From the NCBI GenBank assembly GCA_030710605.1, contig CP092886.1, positions 55,767,956 to 55,831,955 on the forward strand: DNA of 64,000 nucleotides, read 5' to 3'. Within the stretch, counting starts at the first letter, position 1; each line of letters opens with the position of its first letter. Of this stretch, positions 15,816-63,800 are shown in pieces. Source of the DNA: Cordylochernes scorpioides. Taxonomy: Eukaryota; Arthropoda; Arachnida; Pseudoscorpiones; Chernetidae. Under the pieces are notes generated by a model. That model was not told the DNA's origin and ran no database searches. It was given only the letters and a program-made list of their open reading frames with translations. Made by a program: the position numbers and the translations under genes.

Positions 15816-16815
15816 GCAAAAAAAAAAAAAAAAAAGTTAATTTTTATTGAAAAAAAGGAAAAAGCTTTCCCGCGGTCGCGCTTCATCAGGCCAATGACTC
15901 ATCAAAGTCGAGCAAAATACAATTTAGATTCACTAAAATAAATAAAAAAAACTAAAATAAAACAAAAATACAATATTATTTCAACTGTAGAGGGTTAGTG
16001 AACAATCTCTGTGGCATTTTCTGCGTTGAATATACAGAAAGTGCTGAGGTAGATCAATTCTTCTGTTTATGCTGTTGTTGTCTTTGGAGATTAAAGATTT
16101 CAGGATGACACACACAAAAAGCCTTTATAAGGGACATGCCCCATACAGATTCTCCCAATTGGGTAAGGTAATAATCATCTTGTGTTATTTACATAGGTAG
16201 TAAGATAGAAATTTTGAACTCGCTTTACTCTTCGTCTCAAAGTCATTCAATTGTTGACTGGTCCTTACATAATGATGATCTAAAAAAATTATAGTAAGAT
16301 ATTGCCTTCGATTTGTTTGCTGATATTTTTGAAAACAATACGTAGGGTGAAATGTTGGTACATTTAATTTGTTGATATAGGGCCTTCCTTTCTTCATCAA
16401 GGGCTGTACAATTAAGCAGTTAATGGGTATGTTCTTCAGTAATTTCTTTGTCACAGAGTGTACATATTAGGTGTTTGCCCTCAAACGTTCGAACATGTTT
16501 TTTTTTAGATTTCAGGATGAATTTATTGTATTTGGAGAATATGTGTGTTATGGAAATGGTATGTGACATCCTGTAGATTGAACTGGTGGCCCGTAGATAC
16601 TTTATTGCCGAAATATTAAGGATTTTTTATCTTGGTTTTCAATATTACGGCTTCTTAGTTTTTATTCCTATTGATCTGCTTATCTCATCTATACTTGTTC
16701 TTTTCGACTCTGTATTATTCAAACTTTACTCTGTATTATTATTAGATTTGATTATGGGATTGATGAAGCGCGACCATGTGAAGGCTTGCCCTCTACCGCC
16801 TTTTTAAATAAAAGA
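15816..16815 (-). repeat. LINE 3' relic bounded by inverted GATGAAGCGCGACC motifs
   Basis: GGTCGCGCTTCATCA at about 15876-15890 and its reverse complement TGATGAAGCGCGACC at about 16760-16774 bound a segment holding a LINE C-terminal relic. Both boundary motifs lie beside A/T-rich tails. They may be ends of one element or of two inserts. The plus-strand open frame at 16586-16807 has no recognisable domain. Confidence 0.5.
16185..16500 (-). pseudogene. LINE ORF2 C-terminal zinc-knuckle remnant
   Basis: Read on the minus strand, a segment gives CTLCDKEITEEHTH then LLNC, a C-x2-C...H...C knuckle typical of the C-terminus of LINE ORF2 proteins, followed by A-LDEERKALYQQI. A stop codon lies between the His and the last Cys, so it is broken. 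The reverse transcriptase is missing, so this is a 5'-truncated, decayed copy. The knuckle differs in sequence from that of the 30.5 kb LINE, so a different family is likely. Confidence 0.65.
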
Positions 16816-20823: not shown

Positions 20824-22144
20824 CGAGGTGTGTTCAAAAGGTATCGCGACTTTTGTGTTTTTTCAAATATTATTTTTTATTCATGAATACCTATTTTGTC
20901 CTCTTCAAAGTAATCCCCATGAGATATTATACACTTGTGCCAACGGGTTTTCCAATCTTCGAAGCACTTCAAAAAATCATTTTTTTTAAATCTTTTTCAG
21001 CTCCTCTTTCGATGCCGTCTTTATCTCGTCAAGCGTAGCGTAACGTCGTCCTTTCATGGGCCTCTTCAGTTTAGGGAACAAGAAAAAGTCACAGGGGGCC
21101 AGTTCTGGGGAATACGGTGGCTGCGGCATCATTAGTGTGTTGTTTTTGGCCAAAAAGTCGCGCACAAGCAACGATGTGTGAGCAGGGGCGTTATCGTGGT
21201 GCAAAAGCCAATTTTTGTTCTTCCGCAAATCCGGGCGTTTCTGGCGGATTGCTTCGCGCAAATTGCGCATAACTTGCAGGTAATATTCCTTATTGACCGT
21301 TCTACCCTGTGGCAAGAACTCATGATGCACCACGCCCCTGCAATCGAAGAAAACTGTCAGCAAAACTTTCACATTCGACCGAACTTGGCGCGCTTTTTTC
21401 GGTCTTGGTTCGTGCGGCAGCTTCCATTGAGGTGATTGAGCTTTGGTTTCCATGTCATAAACATAAACCCACGCTTCGTCACCAGTTATGACCCTCTGGA
21501 GCAAATTTGGGTCGTCGCGGACAGAGTCCAACATCTCATTAGCAATGTTCATGCTATGCTGTTTTTGGTCGCAATTGAGCAATTTTGGTTCAAATTTAGC
21601 GGCGACCCGTCTCATGCCCAAATCATTGATAAAAATCAAATGGCACGAGCCACTCGATATGTTTAGGTCCTCAGCAACTTCTCTAACGGTGATTCGACGA
21701 TTAGCCAATATCATTTTCTCCACTTCATTAATTTTTTCGTCTGTTGTTGAAGTGCTCGGGCGTCCGGCACGATCTTCGTTGTTCACATCTTCTCGGCCTT
21801 CTGAGAACATTTTGTACTACCGATAAACGTTGCTTCGGTCCAAGGTAGCTTCTCCGTATGCCACAGTCAACATTCGGAATGCATCCGCGCACTTAATTTC
21901 GTTTTTCACACAAAATTTGATACAGGTTCTTTGATCCATTTTTTTAATAGGTAAAAATCGAAGATGATCCAAAACACCTGCAAGCAAAGCAGCTGTCAAC
22001 AATTAAGTGAACATTCAAAATGGCCGAGCTTGTCGGCATAAGTGAGAGACATGAGTACCAACATAAAGCCACAAAAAGATCGAAATTCGAATATACGTAA
22101 CCCGCGAAAATTCAAAAGTCGCGATACCTTTTGAACACACCTCG
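20824..22144 (-). mobile_element. mariner element (1321 bp) with perfect TIRs
   Basis: Terminal inverted repeats of about 32 bp begin CGAGGTGTGTTCAAAAGG and are identical at both ends. Each is flanked by TA (20822-20823 and 22145-22146), the mariner target duplication. The length is typical of full mariner elements. The transposase gene is on the minus strand and carries disabling mutations (separate entry). Intact ends and few coding lesions suggest a fairly recent insertion. Confidence 0.96.
20877..21939 (-). pseudogene. mariner transposase, one nonsense codon and one frameshift
   Basis: Start ATG at 21939-21937 (MDQRTCIKF..). The N-terminal part encodes the helix-turn-helix DNA-binding region; the C-terminal part encodes the DD34D catalytic core: TGDEAWV, HHDNAPAHT and, 34 residues after that Asp, YSPELAPCDFFLF. 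WVYVYD and PHEPRPKKAR also match mariner proteins. An in-frame TAG at 21819-21817 lies where TGG (Trp) would be expected before YKMFSEGRE. Near the 3' end an A/T run has one extra base relative to the 22.36 kb fragment, giving a premature TAA at 20986-20988; in the shifted frame the usual C-terminus continues to 20877. Expected length is about 350 residues. It cannot make full transposase as read. Confidence 0.95.
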
Positions 22145-28890: not shown

Positions 28891-29328
28891 ACATATTTTC
28901 AAGATTATTCAAAAATGCATGATATCTCCATTTTAAAACAAAGAGCTTTTCTTATACATTTGGATTTAAAATCGATTTTATCAATATTTTACCATATTTC
29001 TATGGAGAAAAAAAAATAAACGACTATATATTTAACCTTACTAATGATTATAATACAGTGCGACATATATTGTGAATAAAATCAATTCTATATAAAGCTA
29101 AAATAATCTCTATGTTTTAAAATTCAGGTTATCCATATATATATAGATAAACACTAATAAATATTTTAATTGTAAAGTTTTAAGCATGAAAACACACACA
29201 CATGTTCATCAATATTATATAAATAATTAAAAATTTTATACCACCCTCGTATTTGAAATGAGAATTTAATTAAATTTATATATTTAAAATAAGATGTACA
29301 CAAGCTTTTCTTCCAACTATTCCGCGCT
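28891..29328. other. AT-rich non-coding spacer
   Basis: Nothing recognised. Confidence 0.4.
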
Positions 29329-30064
29329 ACTAGAGAAATAAGTAATATTGCCTTAGAATGCTTTACCAATTAAGCATGTAGAAGGCGGAACACTAGTCAC
29401 ATTATAATACTAGAGAAGTAAGTAATATTGCCTTAGAATGCTCCACCAATTAAGCATGTAGAAGGCGAAACACAATAGTCACATTCTAATACTAGAGAGG
29501 TAAGTGATATTGCCTTAGAATGCTTTACCAATTAAGCATGTAGAAGGCGGAACAATAGTCACATTCTATTACTAGAGAAGTAAGTCATATTGCCTTAGAA
29601 TTCTTTACCAATTAAGCATGTAGAAGGCGGAACAATAGTCACATTATAATACTAGAGAAATAAGTAATATTGCCTTAGAATGCTTTACCAATTAAGTATG
29701 TAGAAGGCGGAACAATAGTCACATTCTAATACTAGAGAAGTAGGTAATATGTCCTTAGAATGCTTTACCAATTAAGCATGTAGAAGGCGGAACAATAGTC
29801 ACATTCTAATACTAGAGAAGTAAGTAATATTGCCTTAGAATGCTCTATCAATTAAGCATGTAGAAGGCGGAACACTAGTCACATTATAATGCTAGAGAAG
29901 TAAGTGATATTGCCTTAGAATGCTTTACCAATTAAGCATGTAGAAGGCGGAACAATAGTCACATTATAATACTAGAGAAGTAAGTAATATTGCCTTAGAA
30001 TGCCTTACCAATTAAACATGTAGAAGGCGGAACAATAGTCACATTATAATACTAGAGAAGTAAG
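29329..30064. repeat. 80-bp tandem repeat (about 9 copies)
   Basis: The unit runs ACTAGAGAAGTAAGTAATAT, TGCCTTAGAATGCTTTACCA, ATTAAGCATGTAGAAGGCGG, AACAATAGTCACATTATAAT with few substitutions between copies. It ends abruptly at 30064, where unique sequence begins. Confidence 0.97.
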
Positions 30065-30369: not shown

Positions 30370-30524
30370 ATAAGTTTCCCTATGAAGCACATGTGCTTTT
30401 GGTCGGATATGCTTTCATTATTTTTAATAACAACATCTGACCTTTTTATTTTTTTCTATTGTTTTTTCACATGTTAAGCGTATTTACGCAAGTTTGGACT
30501 TAAATACCTATTTCTTGGTTTCTC
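30370..30524 (+). repeat. Repeat family A, left part of a copy split by the LINE
   Basis: Contains GCACATGTGCTTTTGGTCGG, ATGCTTTCATTATTTTTAAT, ACATCTGACC and ATTTACGCAAGTTTGGACTT, and ends in TGGTTTCTC (30516-30524). The uninterrupted copy at 51524-51834 (minus) runs straight from this segment into the one at 35291. Confidence 0.85.
30516..30524. repeat. LINE target-site duplication, left copy
   Basis: TGGTTTCTC, repeated exactly at 35282-35290. It brackets the retrotransposon and lies where the empty-site copy at 51.7 kb is continuous. Confidence 0.85.
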
Positions 30525-30591
30525 GTAAGTGAACTGTCTGACTAAAATATTTTCTCTATTTTTACTAAAGTGCAAATTCAATCTATCTGAA

Positions 30592-31497
30592 ATGAAACCT
30601 ACATATCCAATATATCTTACCACCATAATTTTATGTCTATTAGACAAGAATTCTGAGCCAAATTTACATACTTTCAAGCCGGATACACACGGCGGCAAAG
30701 AGATTTGCTTATCACGTGTGAATCTTTCACTCTCAAAATATTTCCGAAACTTTCACCTTATATGTGTAGTTTTAATGCTCTTAATATTAGCTGGCATTGA
30801 ACAAAACCCAGGCCCCAAGATGTCCAAACAAACGACGTTGGAAACAAGCTTAGATAGGGATAAAGATATCAAAGATCTGATAAATGCACTCACCAAAAGG
30901 CTGGATAGCTGGGGTGAGAGGCTGGAATCCCGTCTTTCGGCAATCGACGATAGAGTAGAAAATATAAACCAAAGACTGCAACAACTAGAGGAATCTTCTG
31001 CCGTTACAAAGGTAGCACTCTCTCAAAACTCCAAAAAAATAAAAGACTTAGAAGACCAGCTTGAATACTTGGATGCAAAGAGCAGAGAAAGGAACCTCAT
31101 TTTTTATGGAATAGAACAAGATAATAACGAGGACTGCCGAGAACGGATACGGAAGGTTATCGAAGAAAATATGCAAACAAAGGAGAAGATAAACATCACG
31201 CGATGCCACCGATTATCCAGAAAACCCGGTGCACCGATCCTGATTGAAGTCCCAGAACAAAACGATAGATCAACTCTATTTAAAGCTGCTTTCAATTTAA
31301 GAGGAACTAAGATATCACTATCGAAAGACTATAGCATGAAGACGAGAGAACAACGGCGCGTTTTGAATGTCAAAAGAAAAGAACTCGTCGAAAGAGGCAC
31401 TCTAGCTAAGCTAAGGGACAACAAATTAATAATTAATGACATAGCATATAAGGTCTGTGATGGACAAATTGTAGATGCCAATGGACATTCATTGTAG
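30592..31497 (+). CDS. LINE ORF1: 2A-containing N-terminus, coiled coil, L1-ORF1p-like RNA-binding region
   Basis: 301 codons from the first ATG; the frame is open further upstream to a GTG at 30529, but without an ATG. Residues 6-17 and 54-67 are hydrophobic (FHLICVVLMLLILA). They lead directly into GIEQNPGP (residues 68-75; 30793-30816), a 2A-type ribosome-skipping motif with the break expected between Gly74 and Pro75. The canonical Asp before I/V is Gly here. An ATG follows two codons later. Residues about 90-165 form a heptad-rich coiled coil (RLDSWGERLESRLSAIDDRV), then RNLIFYGI begins an RRM-like fold, and residues about 215-295 match the C-terminal domain of L1 ORF1p (LFKAAFNLRGTKISLSKDYS). 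The expected role is an RNA-binding, trimerising chaperone. 2A and signal-like N-termini are known in some non-LTR retrotransposons; activity here is untested. Confidence 0.9.
   Translation: MKPTYPIYLTTIILCLLDKNSEPNLHTFKPDTHGGKEICLSRVNLSLSKYFRNFHLICVVLMLLILAGIEQNPGPKMSKQTTLETSLDRDKDIKDLINALTKRLDSWGERLESRLSAIDDRVENINQRLQQLEESSAVTKVALSQNSKKIKDLEDQLEYLDAKSRERNLIFYGIEQDNNEDCRERIRKVIEENMQTKEKINITRCHRLSRKPGAPILIEVPEQNDRSTLFKAAFNLRGTKISLSKDYSMKTREQRRVLNVKRKELVERGTLAKLRDNKLIINDIAYKVCDGQIVDANGHSL
31495..31497 (+). promoter_or_regulatory. In-frame TAG between ORF1 and ORF2, possible read-through site
   Basis: The context is TTG TAG CAA GCA. UAG followed by CAA is a weak-termination context resembling the plant-virus UAG-CAR-YYA signal, although the second downstream codon (GCA) does not fit. 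It is the only stop in 1,439 codons from 30529 to 34845. It could equally be a point mutation of CAG or TGG in a single-ORF element. Confidence 0.45.
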
Positions 31498-34400
31498 CAA
31501 GCAGTTAGGAAACAATCACTTGTAAATAGTCAACCCAACGATACCTTTTCACTGACCTGCTGGAACGTTAACGGGCTGTATAGACTCAATTCAGTTTTTC
31601 CTCTTCTTTATAGTCACTTAGAGAGATACGAAATATTTGCTTTGACCGAAACCTGGTGTGACCATCACTTAAAAAACGGCCCCAGAGGATTCCACTTATT
31701 CGAATCACTGGCAACTAGAAGCTCCAAACTGGGAAGATGCTCGGGTGGAATAATAGTAGGAATTAAAAATAAACTAAAAACTATGTTGGAGAAAGTCGTT
31801 GTAGAGCATAATTGGATATCTATACCTTTCAAGCGTTGTTTCAACATACAAATTTGTTATATATTTACATATATTTCTCCAAACGAATCTCAACTGTCAA
31901 ACTTCATTACTTTATCCAAACATGTCGAAGATAGGTTGGCTAACGGCTATGAAATAGTTCTAGCGGGTGACATAAACATCCGTACCGGCACCTATGGATA
32001 CCTACACAACCCACTAGAACGTCCCTTACTTCTTTCACCTGAACGCAAATCTAGAGACCCAGTGCTTTCCAAACATTGGGAACAACTCATAAACTTCCTA
32101 GATAATAATCTACTGACAATAATTAATGGCAGAACTATAAGTGACAAAACTGGAAACTGCACATTTATCTCAAGTCGTGGCTCATCTGTTGTCGATTATT
32201 TTATTGTCTCATATTCCCTGCTGGAGCACGTTGTTGACCTCAAAGTAGATAATAACCCATACTCGGACCACCTTCCACTAACAATAAACATGTCTAACTT
32301 ATCTAATCTCAAACGAACGAAAGAAACCGTCTATCCCTGCTTTGAAAGATACAGATGGGCACCTGATAACACATCCCTCTTTTCGCAGAATCTTGACAAC
32401 AATCAAGTCTCTACAGACCAGAATCTTGACAGCCTAGTTAATACATTTTCTAAACAAATACTAAACGCAATGCTTGCTGCAGATATGCGCATTAAGGTCA
32501 GACCTGGCCGCCCAAAATCGAAACCCTGGTATAGCAGGGAATGCTATTTAGCCAAAAAATCTGCTAAGGCAAGCCTCACAACCTTTAAGGAAACGAACAC
32601 TGACGTAGACCGCAATATTTATGTCTCAAATAGGAAAAGGTACACGATCTTAATAAACTTCAACAAGAAAAAATATCTTCAGGAAAAACAAGAACTTCTT
32701 AAAAATGCCCGTGACTCCGCAAACTTTTGGAAAACTATAGCTACCTTGAAAGACAAAAGCTATATACAAGGAAATATAACAATTTTAGAGTGGCAATGCT
32801 TTTACAACAAACTGCTCTCTGCTGAAACGACGATAGGAAGCGACCTATCTACTCTCTCACGAATTGATCCTGAACTCTACTGTGAAATCTCCATAACAGA
32901 AATAACTAGAGAAATCTCCAGTCTGGCAAATGAAAAAGCTTGTGGCGCTGACGAAATTCCGAATGAAGCATTAAAGACCCTACCTTTCGAACACCTTGTT
33001 ACTCTAAAAAATATATTCAACAGAATCATTAATTCTGGTTCATATCCCTTAATATGGTCTAAATCTATCATCCATCCTATTTTTAAAAGCGGTGACCGGG
33101 ATAATCCATCAAACTACCGCGGAATTGCCCTTATTAGTAATCTGTCAAAACTTTTCACATCAATACTAAAATCGCGATTACGCAACTGGATTGAAGGTAG
33201 ATCAATTATTCCAGAAAACCAGGCCGGATTCAGAAAAGGCTACTCCTGTCAAGATCACATATTCACACTGTTGTCCTTGATACAGCTGACTCTCAGACGT
33301 AAAAGAAGAAAACTCTATGCTTTTTTTGTGGACCTAAAAAAGGCTTTTGACACTGTTCCCCACTCACTTCTGTGGTCAAAATTGGGTGAATTAGGTCTGG
33401 ATTTCCGCTTTGTTAACCTTATCAGGAACTACTTCGAACAAATGACAACGACGGTGAGATGGAATGGACTATTTACTGAACCCATCAAAATCCAATCGGG
33501 AGTGTTACAAGGAGAACCCTTATCACCCTATCTATTTATACTCTTTGTAACTGATTTAATCAACATTTTTAATGACTCTACTCTACCAGGCATATACCTC
33601 CCTAATTTTGGAACGGTCCACCTTTTGATGTATGCCGACGACATAATTCTCATAGGAGAATCAAAAATCAATCTACAAATAAAAATCAACATGTTGAAAA
33701 AATACTTCGAAACAAATCATCTAACCCTGAACGAATCAAAATCCAAGATAATGGTTTTCCGAAATGGTGGCCGCCCTGCAAAATCGGACAAATGGTTCTG
33801 GGGAGACCAACTGTTGACAGTGACATCGAAATATCTCTATCTTGGCTATCCCCTCACAACAACAATCTCGTTTAGTCAAGTGGCTTCATACTTTAAAGGC
33901 AAAGCGCTTGCAGCTACCGGCGAAGTATGGAAAATTATGGAGAAATCCAGGTTGAATTCATTTGGTTCATCAATGAAACTATTAGACTCGATTATCCTGT
34001 CAACTCTGCTGTATTCTGCTCCAATTTGGGCAAACGAAAAGTACAAAATCTTGGACCAAATTCAGAATAACTATCTCCGACGACTATTGAACTTGCCGAG
34101 TAACACACCAGGCTACATACTACGCATGGAAACCGGACGCTTCTCACTAGGAGTCACAGCAACCAAACTAATTCTAAAGTTCTGGTTAAGAATATTAAAA
34201 ATGGAAAAATCCAGATTGCCCGCAATCTGTCTAGCCCAATTATGGGAAACGTCCACTCTGACGAATGCCTTTATAGGTTTTACAGAAAATTTAATGAATA
34301 TCCTAAACTCAACTGGATTCATGTGGTTAAAGAATTGTTCAGACCCCAATATTCTACAGAAAGCAATACCTCAAATTATCAGAATCACTATAGAACAGTC

Positions 34401-34845
34401 TATCCAAACCGACCAATCAAGAATAACCAATTCGAAGCTACACACACACTACAAATATTTACATAAAACATTCGCAGCAGAGAACTATCTACTAAGTGAA
34501 CTCCCACTGCCGGCTAAACGCCTCATTGCGCAATTGAGAATTCTATTTGTTTTATATCGAGAAGACCATATAAAATATCTAAGGACAGAAGACTTGTATT
34601 GCCAACTATGCAAAAATAGAACCGAAAATGAATTAGAACATTATATATTTGAATGCATGCCTCTTGACACGGAAAGAAAAATACTCTTCTCTAAGATAGG
34701 CCATACACACTTCACATTATATTCTTTATTATCCAACTTTATAGACAATAGTTCAGTAGCTCTAAATCTATATAACTTCCATAAAAATGCTGTAAAAAAG
34801 AAAGACTTAACCGAACATTCAAACATACCAAAAATTTCTGTTTGA
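31498..34845 (+). CDS. LINE ORF2: AP-like endonuclease and reverse transcriptase
   Basis: The frame runs unbroken from the codon after the ORF1 TAG to TGA at 34843-34845 (1115 codons). The first in-frame ATG (31783) lies past the first catalytic residues, so ordinary AUG initiation would lose them. Endonuclease motifs: CWNVNG (about 31558), LTETW, GDIN (31966), SSVVDY, YSDHLP. Reverse-transcriptase motifs: NYRGIALIS, ENQAGFRKG, motif A FVDLKKAFD, GVLQGEPLSPY, motif C MYADDI (about 33631). The C-terminus has a zinc knuckle CQLCKNRTENELEHYIFEC. No RNase H. All catalytic residues that I can place are intact. The product would nick DNA and prime reverse transcription on the target. Expression presumably depends on read-through, reinitiation or a polyprotein in unmutated copies. 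Confidence 0.95.
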   Translation, partial: QAVRKQSLVNSQPNDTFSLTCWNVNGLYRLNSVFPLLYSHLERYEIFALTETWCDHHLKNGPRGFHLFESLATRSSKLGRCSGGIIVGIKNKLKTMLEKVVVEHNWISIPFKRCFNIQICYIFTYISPNESQLSNFITLSKHVEDRLANGYEIVLAGDINIRTGTYGYLHNPLERPLLLSPERKSRDPVLSKHWEQLINFLDNNLLTIINGRTISDKTGNCTFISSRGSSVVDYFIVSYSLLEHVVDLKVDNNPYSDHLPLTINMSNLSNLKRTKETVYPCFERYRWAPDNTSLFSQNLDNNQVSTDQNLDSLVNTFSKQILNAMLAADMRIKVRPGRPKSKPWYSRECYLAKKSAKASLTTFKETNTDVDRNIYVSNRKRYTILINFNKKKYLQEKQELLKNARDSANFWKTIATLKDKSYIQGNITILEWQCFYNKLLSAETTIGSDLSTLSRIDPELYCEISITEITREISSLANEKACGADEIPNEALKTLPFEHLVTLKNIFNRIINSGSYPLIWSKSIIHPIFKSGDRDNPSNYRGIALISNLSKLFTSILKSRLRNWIEGRSIIPENQAGFRKGYSCQDHIFTLLSLIQLTLRRKRRKLYAFFVDLKKAFDTVPHSLLWSKLGELGLDFRFVNLIRNYFEQMTTTVRWNGLFTEPIKIQSGVLQGEPLSPYLFILFVTDLINIFNDSTLPGIYLPNFGTVHLLMYADDIILIGESKINLQIKINMLKKYFETNHLTLNESKSKIMVFRNGGRPAKSDKWFWGDQLLTVTSKYLYLGYPLTTTISFSQVASYFKGKALAATGEVWKIMEKSRLNSFGSSMKLLDSIILSTLLYSAPIWANEKYKILDQIQNNYLRRLLNLPSNTPGYILRMETGRFSLGVTATKLILKFWLRILKMEKSRLPAICLAQLWETSTLTNAFIGFTENLMNILNSTGFMWLKNCSDPNILQKAIPQIIRITIEQSIQTDQSRITNSKLHTHYKYLHKTFAAENYLLSELPLPAKRLIAQLRILFVLYREDHIKYLRTEDLYCQLCKNRTENELEHYIFECMPLDTERKILFSKIGHTHFTLYSLLSNFIDNSSVALNLYNFHKNAVKKKDLTEHSNIPKISV

Positions 34846-35281
34846 TAAGAAAGACAGAACCAACATCCAATTATTTGTTTAGGCAGATACGATAAGTTAA
34901 CAATGATAAAACGGTGTTTACCTTACAACCCTGAACACGAGGATTTCCTGGGAAATCTCTTAAAGATTTCTTAAAAAATACATGGCCCACCTGCGCTGTT
35001 CCATCTTGTTCCATATGTAAATACCTGTTTTCTTTCCTCTTTTCGCTCTCCACTTCTCCCATCCATATTTCCAAAAAATTTTTTTTTTTTTCTCTTTTTT
35101 TTATTTTTTTTTTATTCTTCTTATTTTTTATTCTTTCTTATAATCTGTATATATTTACCAAATGTATATAATCTTTCTCCATTTTTTATTTCCCACTTTC
35201 ATAGGTTTCTCCGTTTTGTAACCCCAAGGAGAATCCTCTGTAAGACCTGTGTGTCTTAATAAAGGCTTTTGTGTGTGTGTG

Positions 35282-35290
35282 TGGTTTCTC
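35282..35290. repeat. LINE target-site duplication, right copy
   Basis: TGGTTTCTC, identical to 30516-30524. Confidence 0.85.
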
Positions 35291-35530
35291 AAGAAGCTTC
35301 TGGGACCAAAAATATTTTTGGTGTCAGTGGTACAGCCTGCTCCACGCTGACGAGCGCCAACAGCGCGAAACGCGTTCGTGGATAAATCAAATCAAGAAAA
35401 TGGGTTGGACAAATATCAGGGAACAGTTTAAATCAACCTTTAGTTGATTTCTGTTCCACTAGATGGCGCTCTGACATCTTAAAAACACATGTGCTTTTGT
35501 TCAGGATATACTTTCATTATTTTTTAATAT
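35291..35530 (+). repeat. Repeat family A, right part of the copy split by the LINE
   Basis: Continues AAGAAGCTTCTGGGACCAAA, CACGCTGACGAGCGCCAAC, AGCGCGAAACGCGTTCGTGG, TTCTGTTCCACTAGATGGCG, ACACATGTGCTTTTGTTCAGG and ends in CTTTCATTATTTTTTAAT. That last block also starts the left part, so the whole copy has short direct repeats at its ends. Confidence 0.88.
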
Positions 35531-60121: not shown

Positions 60122-60860
60122 TGCCGTTGTTGTTGTCGTGTCCAATAAAGAGCCTTAAATGTATCCATGCACCTCCATCACAGCAGCAGCAATGTCCACT
60201 ATCTTGGGTGTGTAAAGCTGCTGCTCTGGGTTTATGTCAATTTTCTGCAAGGCTGCGGCCATTGGTGGCTATGAGAATATGTGGGTAGGTGTAGGTTCCA
60301 CACCAGGACAATTGTTGCATGCCCTATAGGTTCTTGTACCATCTGGATGTATTCTTATTTTTTGTTTAATTATCTTGTTTTTTGACAAAGAATCAGCGTC
60401 AAATAATGACATTTGTTCTTTCCTTTGGCTCAACTTTCTGGCTTCCTTTGTCAATTCAAATGCCATTTCATTACCCCCGATCCCAGCATGGGCAGAGATC
60501 CAATGTAGAATGCAGTTATTCTACAATGGTTCCAGTTGGGTAAGAAACGAGTGTATTTTCTGTGTGATTTTAGTATTGCCCTTCTGAATTGCTTCTAGAG
60601 CGGATATGGAGTCGCTGTATATTAAAATTCCTTCTGCTTGATGCAGGGATGGTTGGTTAAGGCATAAATCAAGGGCTTTCCAGATAGCTGTCAGTTCACA
60701 AGTGAAGTTTGACGAAATCTGTCCTGCTCCTTCTTTGATTTTGATGTTTGTTCCATCTTGCAGTATTATGTTAATTCCGGCCCCTCCATTACTCAGGGTA
60801 AGGTCTGAAGATCCATCTGTATAAGCTGTTAAAGGGCGTGGCCTAGCATTTTTAATCAAG
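60122..60860 (-). mobile_element. LINE family B 3' portion (5'-truncated)
   Basis: On the minus strand it starts inside an RNase H domain and runs to a 3' end with GCTGCTGCTGTGATGGAGG, GGCTCTTTATTGGACACGAC and (AAC)n. The 3' motifs recur at 41.5 and 20.0 kb. Abuts a second LINE head to head at 60860. Confidence 0.85.
60269..60859 (-). pseudogene. LINE RNase H domain with one nonsense codon
   Basis: About 197 codons in one frame. It reads AYTDGSSDLTLSNGGAGI (first catalytic Asp), CELTAIWKAL (Glu), ILIYSDSISALEAI (Asp), then a stop at 60521-60523 and, in the same frame, LHWISAHAGIGGNEMAFEL (His/Glu-region motif). These are the landmarks of the RNase H that follows reverse transcriptase in I/R1/Jockey-group LINEs. 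The reverse transcriptase itself is missing. Confidence 0.88.
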
Positions 60861-60863
60861 AAT

Positions 60864-63800
60864 TTGTACTATGAAGACATAGCCATTAATATTCCAAACA
60901 CATTAGACCTCGAAGCCCAAGGTATCAAAGTCTACCTCAATCAAAACAAAGCCACCAACATATACAATATGTATCACCTTCCAAACAATACATTTATTGA
61001 GACGATGGAACAATGGCTCAATTTCTTACAGACAACACTATTATTGTAGGTGACCTTAATGCCAAACATCAACTATGAGGATGTTCTACGCCAAACCCAA
61101 GAGGCAAATACTATCAAACATATTTGAAGACAATGCCTTCATTTGCTAAAAAATGATGGGAATCCTACCCATCATTCCTACAAGCTATAATACTGCACAA
61201 GCCCTTGATATAAGTTTTTACTATCCTGACATTTTCAACAAATGCAAATAGCAAATATTAAAAAGTTTAGGAAGTGATCATTTGCCTAATTTGATAGAAA
61301 TCAGCACCAAGACCAAAACTAGCTCAATTAAGAAAAATTCTGGAACTTCAAAAGGCTAATATGATATCTTTCGAAAACACCATTATTGAAGCAGCCAAAG
61401 TTTCAATACCAAGAGGTAATATTAAGAAATGGATTCCAAATTATACACACCAGGCAAAAAATATTCAAACACTTATAACTAAAAGAAATGAACTACAAAA
61501 AGGTGCACCCAAAACCAAACAAATTGTAGAACTGAATTAAACATTGTGATTGCAAAAATAAAAGATTATACGTAAATGTGAAAAGGGAAAAAATGGAAAC
61601 AAACCTGTGAAAACCTGAACCCAAGAAACCCAAATACAAAACTTTGGAATTTGGCAAAACAAATTGACAGAGTCCAGCCACAAACTGAAAACACAAATAT
61701 GATTAAGAATACAGATGGTACACCAGCAATAATGACAAAATTGCTGCCAATCTTTTAGGTAATTCATATCAAATAAGTAGTAAAATCAAGGTTGAAAAAG
61801 GCCCGAAAGATTATTCATGACAGTAAAAATGTCACCAGTACTCATAATATTTTCCATGAATAAAATCAATATGAAAGAGCTAGCTTATGCATTAGAAAAC
61901 ACTGACCTAAACAAGACTCCTGGGCCAGATGGAATCCATGGCCGAATTAAATCAAACTTGGGCAAAATTGGCAAAGAAAGACTTCTTAATATTTTCAATA
62001 ACTCCTGGAAAACTGGAAAATTGCCTCAAGACTGTAAAAATGCAACAATAATTCCCATTAAAAAACTTGACAAATATGCTGATGACCCAAAAAACTACCG
62101 ACCTATCTCCCTCACAATATTTGCTGCAAATTAATGGAAAAAATTATACTCAGACGACTCACCTACCACCTCGACACAAGAAATCTCTGACCAGAAGAAC
62201 AATATGGATTTAGGAAAGGACATGAGACAATAGACCAACTCTTATTTTACACACAAAAGGTAAAAGATGCACAAAACAAAAACCAACTAACAACACCATA
62301 GCTGCTTTTTAGACCTTACACAAGCTTTTGATAAGGTATGGAAAAACAAGTTAATTACAAAATTATACAAACATTTCAAAATTGATGGAAAAGCTATAAC
62401 TTGGATAAATGATTCCCTTAAAAATATATACATCAGGGTCAAATATAATGGCACTCTATATAAAACCTTCAAATTGTACCAAGGATTACCACAAGGATCA
62501 GTCCTTAGCCCAACTCTCTTCAGCCTATTTATTGCAGGCATAGAAGAAAACTTTTCACATAAAACCAATATTGGACTTTTCGCTGATGACATTATTCTAT
62601 GGAGCAGCAACACTAACTGGAAAAAAGCTGAAAGAGATTTGAACAAGACTCTTCTCCACCTAGAAAAATTTGCTAATAAACATAAATTAGAATTTAACCC
62701 CCAAAATCTGAAACCTGTCTTTTTACTACCGATAAGAAACTATACAAAATAAGACCAAATATTATTCTGAAAGAACAACAATTGCAATATAATAAACATC
62801 CTAAATATCTCGGCTACACCCTAGATCAGAAATTAACTCCAGTAAACATATTGAAGGAGTTGTTAGAAAAGGAAGAGACCGACTAAAAATCTTGAAATAT
62901 ATTTCAGGAAGAGTGGGGAGCTGAAGCAACAACACTAAAATTAACTTACACATCTCTAATGAGACCTATCTTGGAATATGGATATCAAATCTATGGTACA
63001 ACATCTGAAACAAATTTAAAAGCACTGGAAAGGATACAACTAAATGCAACTAGAATTATTACAGGTCTCCGAAATACCTGCCCTGATAATATTGTACTCT
63101 ACGAGGCAGACATTATGCCCTTAAAGGATAGAATAAAATACAGTCTGCCAAAATATAAACAGAATCTAGAGTTATGAAAACAAACACAGAACTTTCAATT
63201 ACATACTTAATTGGGAACCCAATATAAGACTCAAAAAAGAAGGCCCTCTCCACCTGGCCAAAAGAAATGGATTTTAAAATATAAAGTGGAAAAATATTAT
63301 TTAGCTGAAAAAATATCTCCATGCGAACCACTAACAAAATGTTATTTTTAATGCCACTTTAAATGAACCCACCAACAAACAATACCAAAATCCAGAATAC
63401 TTAAAACAATTATCATTAGAAATAATAAATGTGAAATTCCTAAAAATGCAATAACTATCTATACAGATGGTAGCAGAGACGAGTTGGGACACACTGGCAG
63501 TGGCTCTCTCATTAAAACCACTAATGGCAATGAGAAAATAAACAAAAGAAACCCAGAATTTTGCTCAGTCTTCAGATCAGAACTTATAGCCATCTATGAA
63601 GTCTTAAAATCCATCAGAAACACTAAACATCACGTTTTTGGATTCTTACTGATAGTAGAAGTGCCATACAACACTTGAGTCACACAGGGGAACTTAGAGA
63701 CAAAGTAAGCAGGAACATAATTGGTTATCTCCAAAAAACTCTCAATACCTCAAAAATTCACCTTCAATGGATACCCTTACATGTTAGCATTGGAGGCAAT

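Follow-up and report, generated by a model that had tools for sequence, protein, structure and literature searches.

Some LINEs of the pseudoscorpion Cordylochernes scorpioides open their first reading frame (ORF1) with a leader that ends in a StopGo (2A) core, and join it in frame, across a single UAG, to an ORF2 for endonuclease and reverse transcriptase. Both this anatomy and its repetition across LINE families were seen directly. The arrangement suggests an APE-type family whose transcript is probably expressed through two recoding events, StopGo and UAG readthrough. Skipping between Gly74 and Pro75 very probably takes place, readthrough of the UAG into ORF2 is likely, and membrane targeting by the leader has somewhat less than an even chance of being right. 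In the proposed mechanism, translation would begin at the first AUG and produce a 67-residue leader followed by the StopGo core. The ribosome would leave Gly74 and Pro75 unjoined, freeing a leader of 74 residues, and would continue to free an ORF1 protein of 227 residues. Most ribosomes would terminate at UAG-CAA, while a minority would read through to give an ORF1-ORF2 fusion with endonuclease and reverse transcriptase, comparable to the Gag-Pol of some retroviruses. The hydrophobic stretch adjoining the core would act in the exit tunnel as StopGo context, and another hydrophobic stretch near the N terminus, outside the ribosome by the time of the skip, would be the likely membrane-targeting signal; StopGo would in that case separate a cytosolic ORF1 protein from a microprotein bound for the membrane. 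The features of the element are collected in Table 1, where positions refer to the window, the whole 64,000-nucleotide stretch of DNA that was analysed.

Table 1. Features of the LINE, with positions in the window and the basis of each call.
Feature	Position	Strand	Basis or remark
LINE copy	30525 to about 35282 (approximate ends)	+	Alignment of other genome copies; nearly intact
ORF1, 301 aa	30592-31497	+
Leader, upstream product to Gly74, 74 residues	30592-30813	+	Predicted break
N-terminal hydrophobic, signal-like stretch, residues 5-17 (approximate)	30604-30642	+	Recurs in leaders examined
Second hydrophobic stretch, residues 54-67, probable StopGo context	30751-30792	+	L-rich match
StopGo/2A core GIEQNPG/P, residues 68-75	30793-30816	+	Match to core pattern
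Predicted break	Between Gly74 (30811-30813) and Pro75 (30814-30816)	+	Core position
Predicted downstream ORF1 product, 227 residues, coiled coil and conserved C-terminal part	30814-31494	+	Alignment, model
Leaky-type stop context UAG CAA GCA (UAG 31495-31497)	31495-31503	+	Sequence
ORF2, endonuclease and reverse transcriptase, 1115 residues, in ORF1 frame	31498-34845	+	Pfam and PDB matches
ORF2 tandem stops TGA TAA	34843-34848	+
3' stem-loop (weak)	35190-35270	+	z -1.95; 10 of 200 shuffles fold equally well

Copies elsewhere in the host genome (2.62 Gb, 24 contigs searched) align over about 30521-35283 of the window, and the part common to them starts with GTAAGT at 30525. Because the longest copies extend 49 nt further 5' until their flanks diverge, the window copy is slightly 5'-truncated and lacks its first 49 nt; position 30521 was rejected as a natural 5' end on the same grounds. 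An 8-bp direct repeat, GGTTTCTC, was found by script on both sides of the window LINE (30517-30524 and 35283-35290). The script returned no duplication for the other nine copies, their 5' ends having been placed wrongly; when the longer 5' end was used, target-site duplications were seen by eye in at least three other copies (L024, L025, and L027; loci carry L numbers throughout). The 3' tail of the window LINE is (TG)n. Target-site duplication, 5' truncation, and a 3' simple-repeat tail are all traits of APE-type elements (truncated copies were also read), and ORF2 has the corresponding domains, with Pfam matches to RVT_1 (8.6e-35), Exo_endo_phos_2 (9.5e-10), and Exo_endo_phos (1.5e-7); in the PDB it matches LINE-1 and R2 proteins. 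The family of the window LINE is young. In a protein search with 5,706 candidates, 17 of the best 131 scored places, among them the window itself, tie for the top score at 100% identity, and internal stops are absent from 122 of the 131, although intact copies are favoured in this set because only the best of the candidates were scored.

The surroundings of the LINE contain further repeats. An 80-bp tandem repeat of about nine copies (29328-30064) lies a few hundred bases 5' of it, and one dispersed repeat occurs on both sides (30385-30429 and 35483-35529) as well as elsewhere in the window. A mariner-like transposase ORF lies on the minus strand at 20986-21810 (274 codons open; Transposase_1, 1.2e-18). 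Fragments of other retroelements were found at 16252-16506 (-), 61862-62599 (+), and 60521-60859 (-); these are two ORF2-like stretches and one RNase H fragment.

A first-pass annotation of this DNA had described a hydrophobic segment at residues 54-67 of ORF1 leading into GIEQNPGP, a methionine shortly afterwards, and two predicted products, all of which the translation of ORF1 bears out. Residues 54-67, FHLICVVLMLLILA, are followed directly by GIEQNPG (68-74) and Pro75 in the context LILAG-IEQ-NPG/P, and Met77 (ATG at 30820) comes just after the predicted break. GIEQNPGP falls within the StopGo octapeptide definition (D/G/C/N)(V/I)ExNPGP, and MLLILA-G at p6-p12 fits the description of viral StopGo motif 5, with its (A/G/S)G at p12, as judged by eye from the description only; p15 is Gln in the window, and motif 5 prefers Pro there. 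NPGP occurs once across the six frames of the 64-kb window, and under a first-order base model the octapeptide pattern is expected 1.5e-4 times per window and 3e-7 times per ORF1. Aligned ORF1 sequences matched coiled-coil models and proteins in the PDB and Pfam, the Pfam hits all falling below curated cut-offs, and a single-sequence model shows one long helix, though the two models made were poor (pTM 0.27 and 0.38). The coiled coil that had been assigned to the downstream half is supported to this extent, and the RNA-binding region assigned with it is not: no RNA-binding family was among the Pfam matches to ORF1, and the C-terminal half of ORF1 alone had no credible sequence match in the PDB. 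No relative was confirmed among viral contigs when either ORF1 or ORF2 served as the query.

The leader is 62-80 residues long across the loci studied, and all 19 leaders examined, from about 12 families, follow one plan: a hydrophobic stretch at the N terminus, then a polar region, a second hydrophobic stretch, and the core. Some of the 19 are close pairs, and loci with lost leaders were left out. By itself the N-terminal stretch is modest, with shuffle p values between 0.002 and 0.11 across leaders and 0.07 in the window, while both stretches together appear in at most 0.35% (p 0.0035) of 2,000 shuffles of each leader. Pairwise identity among 11 aligned leaders averages 26% (range 9-90%), compared with 49% for the rest of ORF1. 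These sets of 11 and 19 loci exclude those with lost or very short leaders (L011-L017, L020, L021, L047, L058, L061, and L062) as well as duplicated or closely related loci (L019, L022, L046, L050, L052-L054, and L067); for L048 the second in-frame ATG was used. Four leader pairs with dS above 0.8 have dN/dS of 0.26/1.15, 0.61/1.46, 0.48/1.83, and 0.28/0.90, or ratios of about 0.23, 0.42, 0.26, and 0.31, with dS above 1 being saturated. Because these ratios are low in the diverged pairs, the leader looks translated and constrained over longer times. Five closer pairs gave 0.60, 0.68, 0.37, 2.0, and 1.45, on few changes; the signs of purifying selection come only from the diverged pairs. In one LINE subfamily (L082:1-602 and L083:1-602), a 132-bp stretch that holds the 2A core and the start of ORF1 is repeated in tandem and in frame, with the second core preceded by WGDKLIS rather than an L-rich stretch; in L063 the duplication is of 133 bp and has lost the frame.

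The ribosome exit tunnel holds 30-40 residues, so that residues 54-67 would not yet have left the ribosome as Gly74 joins the chain, and residues 5-17 would already have emerged. The proposal in the first-pass annotation that the signal is the stretch adjoining NPGP is doubtful on this tunnel length, and that stretch fits an L-rich StopGo context. Residues 54-67 are accordingly placed here as putative StopGo context and residues 5-17 as the putative targeting signal, the N-terminal stretch being likely the better signal-peptide candidate of the two. A leader in which both functions reside in one sequence is nonetheless known: Roulston et al. 2016 describe a 26-residue sequence of a sea urchin NLR that does both targeting and skipping (PMC4981915). 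A recoding signal of that type, with the stretch beside NPGP as the signal and partial skipping that splits the protein between the secretory pathway (uncleaved) and the cytosol (cleaved), seems unlikely for the LINE. In both, a hydrophobic sequence at the N terminus runs into a StopGo core, hydrophobic stretches are present twice here, and failed skipping would leave ORF1 joined to a hydrophobic leader. The sea urchin sequence belongs to host immune genes and is only 26 residues long, however, whereas the leaders of this mobile element have about 70 residues and two tracts, with the additional N-terminal stretch in all those examined, and secretion of a coiled-coil LINE ORF1 protein would have no evident use.

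The in-frame UAG-CAA that leads to an AUG-less ORF2, like the N-terminal stretch and the missing 49 nt, is a point absent from the first-pass annotation. The first Met of ORF2 is residue 96, well within the endonuclease, and no AUG stands ahead of the endonuclease core. In 58 rows of junctions, which contain near-identical copies and some places counted twice, ORF1 terminates with UAG in 55 cases and with UAA in 3, and the codon after the stop is CAA in 44, CAG in 5, CTA in 3, and CCA in 2; UAG-CTA and UAG-CCA are carried by single families. The same frame reaches the endonuclease motif in 41 of the 58, the other 17 ending mostly in a locus end, decay, frameshift, or deletion. The family of L011 and L058 ends ORF1 with UAA-CAA, and the leaders of both loci are damaged. 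Eleven linkers of 21-87 codons between the stop and the endonuclease hold one Met in 566 codons, against 7.6 predicted from the frequency of Met in ORF2 (P 0.004), but this choice of one per type favoured Met-free siblings, and the full recount of all 20 distinct linkers (6 Met in 1,082 codons, 14.6 expected) weakens the P value to 0.010. An in-frame Met is present in five of the 20 (L035, the L043 group, L047, L048, and L058). All were collected in frame, and they are not independent, some having ORF1 or ORF2 modules in common. Because the linker search had been in frame, the other frames were checked in eight loci: the endonuclease lies out of frame in L056 and L064, in a frame itself broken by stops; it is in frame in L010 and L019; L057 and L065 gave no junction; and no endonuclease was found in this check in L051/L054, one place counted twice.

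Readthrough is the simplest account of this junction. One study gives the readthrough context of tobacco mosaic virus as UAG CAR YYA and reports that readthrough was lost when G replaced the C after the stop (PMC2754532). The window has the UAG followed by CAR of this type I (CAR-YYA) class, as UAG CAA, and lacks YYA as the second codon (GCA, for a hexanucleotide of CAAGCA); the nearest approach is TTG, in L055 and L066. No stable RNA structure was found after the UAG in the window (z +1.3). Lacking YYA, the junction is set outside type I readthrough, yet it might work likewise. It shares with tobacco mosaic virus a UAG followed by CAA, and with the Gag-Pol of Moloney murine leukaemia virus a polymerase placed downstream in the same frame after UAG; it differs in having CAAGCA and not CAR-YYA, in showing no downstream RNA structure, and in belonging to a LINE. 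Expression of ORF2 by termination-reinitiation or internal non-AUG initiation is improbable. Such a route has precedents in the translational coupling of SART1 and in the unconventional termination-reinitiation proposed for LINE-1 (PMC5972666), and the endonuclease in another frame at two loci would suit it. It requires neither a fixed frame nor UAG-CAR, yet most rows are in frame, 49 of the 58 have CAA or CAG after the stop, and 15 of the 20 distinct linkers have no Met at all.

That the ORF1 protein is made mainly from Met77 by leaky scanning, the leader being an upstream extension and the skip of little importance, is very unlikely. The ATG at 30820 does have A at -3 (CCCAAGATG), but the first AUG is the one at 30592, with G at -3; no AUG precedes it in either the 49 nt absent from the window copy or the window's own 5' part. 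Met77 is also absent from the other families read, in which the downstream product starts PKSTRQ, PKVTRQ, PPTKKQ, PKKQ, and so on, and diverged leaders retain the same plan.

The Gly at p12, in place of the canonical Asp, had been considered unusual in the first-pass annotation, and the copy search that it proposed for learning whether D or G is ancestral, run in the host genome, gave the opposite picture. Exact cores of the Gly type number 2,149 in the whole genome (reversed-pattern control 2), those of the Cys type 269 (control 0), and those of the Asp type 15 (control 2); with any residue allowed at p12 there are 2,497 (control 16), 64 of which have a residue other than Gly, Cys, or Asp. 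Among the loci read, cores are spread over about a dozen LINE families, and p15 is Q, S, P, L, or K. Because Gly so outnumbers Asp, Gly is the normal, resident state at p12 in this genome. Asp as the ancestral state, with Gly as a lesion, was rejected, as the Asp-type places either group with Gly-type members of the same families or form one local cluster. By eye, L020 and L023 belong to the window family; L018, L021, and L011 stand beside their Gly-type kin L059, L056, and L058, respectively; L010, L019, and L022 stand beside L047, L050, and L067; and L009 stands beside the decayed L071. The cluster, L012-L017, comprises six nearly identical copies within 2.5 Mb on a single contig and resembles L057. 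Viral sites agree: according to Li et al. 2026, Gly is as prevalent as Asp at p12 of viral StopGo, the core is widened to (D/G/C/N), and (A/G/S)G closes motif 5 at p12 (PMC12846837). Skipping by a GxExNPGP motif has been reported for duck hepatitis A virus (PMC6249498). Motif 5, with its core of G(V/I)ExNPGP, is described for RNA viruses and preferentially has P at p15 (PMC12846837), where the LINEs are more varied. Cys at p12 defines a family here (CIELNPGP, in L068 and 269 genome places); the same source treats it as a rare variant known from a rotavirus polyprotein (PMC12846837).

Families found through 2A patterns cannot themselves prove that the 2A site is conserved, so a search was made by an ORF1 motif instead. 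Most of the divergent families came from the 2A search, which biases their conservation; the ORF1-motif sample alone is free of this. KLRDNKL, near the C terminus of ORF1, occurs at 2,106 places in the genome (control 24), and the sample was the first 100 places listed, 99 of them falling in the part of contig C1 that the list of Gly-type cores spans. A Gly-type core lies 450-1000 bp upstream on the same strand at 55 of these 99 sites and a Cys-type core at 12 more, so that 67 of 99 have an exact core of one type or the other. Conversely, 55 of 100 listed Gly-type cores have KLRDNKL downstream, where random placement expects 0.015. Thirteen of the 32 remaining sites were read by eye and included no intact ORF1 without a core: in L069 and L071 ORF1 is broken and its core point-mutated, seven others (L070, L072, L073, L074, L079, L080, and L081) are truncated at a point downstream of the core, and four belong to something other than the LINE studied (L075-L078). 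L068, chosen for its absent Gly-type core, has the same leader plan. NPGP is also kept in 28 of 28 loci chosen by whole-ORF1 similarity from the best 131 scored places (L001-L008 and L024-L043, 26 distinct places), as GIEQNPGP in 27 and GIEKNPGP in one, though this says less because those copies are young. Loss of NPGP from an otherwise retained protein, which would have counted against the 2A site, is thus the opposite of what was seen, and the site is supported as one kept behind hydrophobic sequence across many families. The window copy lacks its 5' end, but the idea that its NPGP is a chance match or a decayed, functionless remnant is very improbable given the expectation of 3e-7 per ORF1, the thousands of cores kept across families while leaders diverged, and the cores in the 2A-independent sample.

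The modules of these elements have been exchanged. The window-type ORF1 is joined to at least three ORF2 types (L024-L029; L039 and L040; L042 and L043), and the recombinants read keep the frame across the UAG. Different ORF1 types also occur on the same ORF2 type near the UAG (L039/L040/L066, L042/L043/L048, and L044/L055). L036-L038 are ORF1-only elements of about 2.4 kb in which the 2A leader and ORF1 are intact; their 3' end is 87-89% like that of the window, and they are non-autonomous half-LINEs. Metcalfe and Casane have described reticulate ORF1 evolution in the CR1 and L2 lineages (PMC4120745).

2A sites in LINEs are already known. Odon et al. 2013 reportedly found them in non-LTR retrotransposons of the CR1, L2, Rex1, Crack, and Ingi clades, and Heras et al. 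2006 are said to have described the 2A-bearing L1Tc of Trypanosoma cruzi. The LINEs studied here resemble these APE-type elements in having a StopGo core in a LINE frame together with endonuclease and reverse transcriptase. Features noted here are a core of the Gly or Cys type, an ORF1 leader of 62-80 residues with two hydrophobic stretches, and the in-frame UAG-CAR before an AUG-less ORF2, any of which the known elements may share. A broader possibility, less likely than not, is a large radiation of LINEs with a virus-style, three-product plan in one frame (a membrane-directed leader microprotein freed at a Gly or Cys StopGo site, ORF1, and a rare ORF1-ORF2 fusion) and assembly at the ER: the leader would take the translating ribosome and the LINE RNA to the ER, and ORF1 protein would be made and assembled at the membrane.

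As far as sequence can establish it, the Gly-type StopGo site in the LINE leader is confirmed as genuine, and UAG readthrough is probably coupled to it. Some 2,400 exact cores in about a dozen or more families of one genome form a natural alignment; the leader plan recurs, Gly or Cys is kept at p12, and Asp is rare, and the function of the leader is therefore testable. A search of the open-licence literature found no description of such a UAG junction in a LINE, which is weak evidence, most subscription papers lying outside it. If the readthrough is true, LINEs would have a Gag-Pol-like control of the ratio of ORF1 to ORF2, and their ORF2 protein would be a fusion with ORF1.
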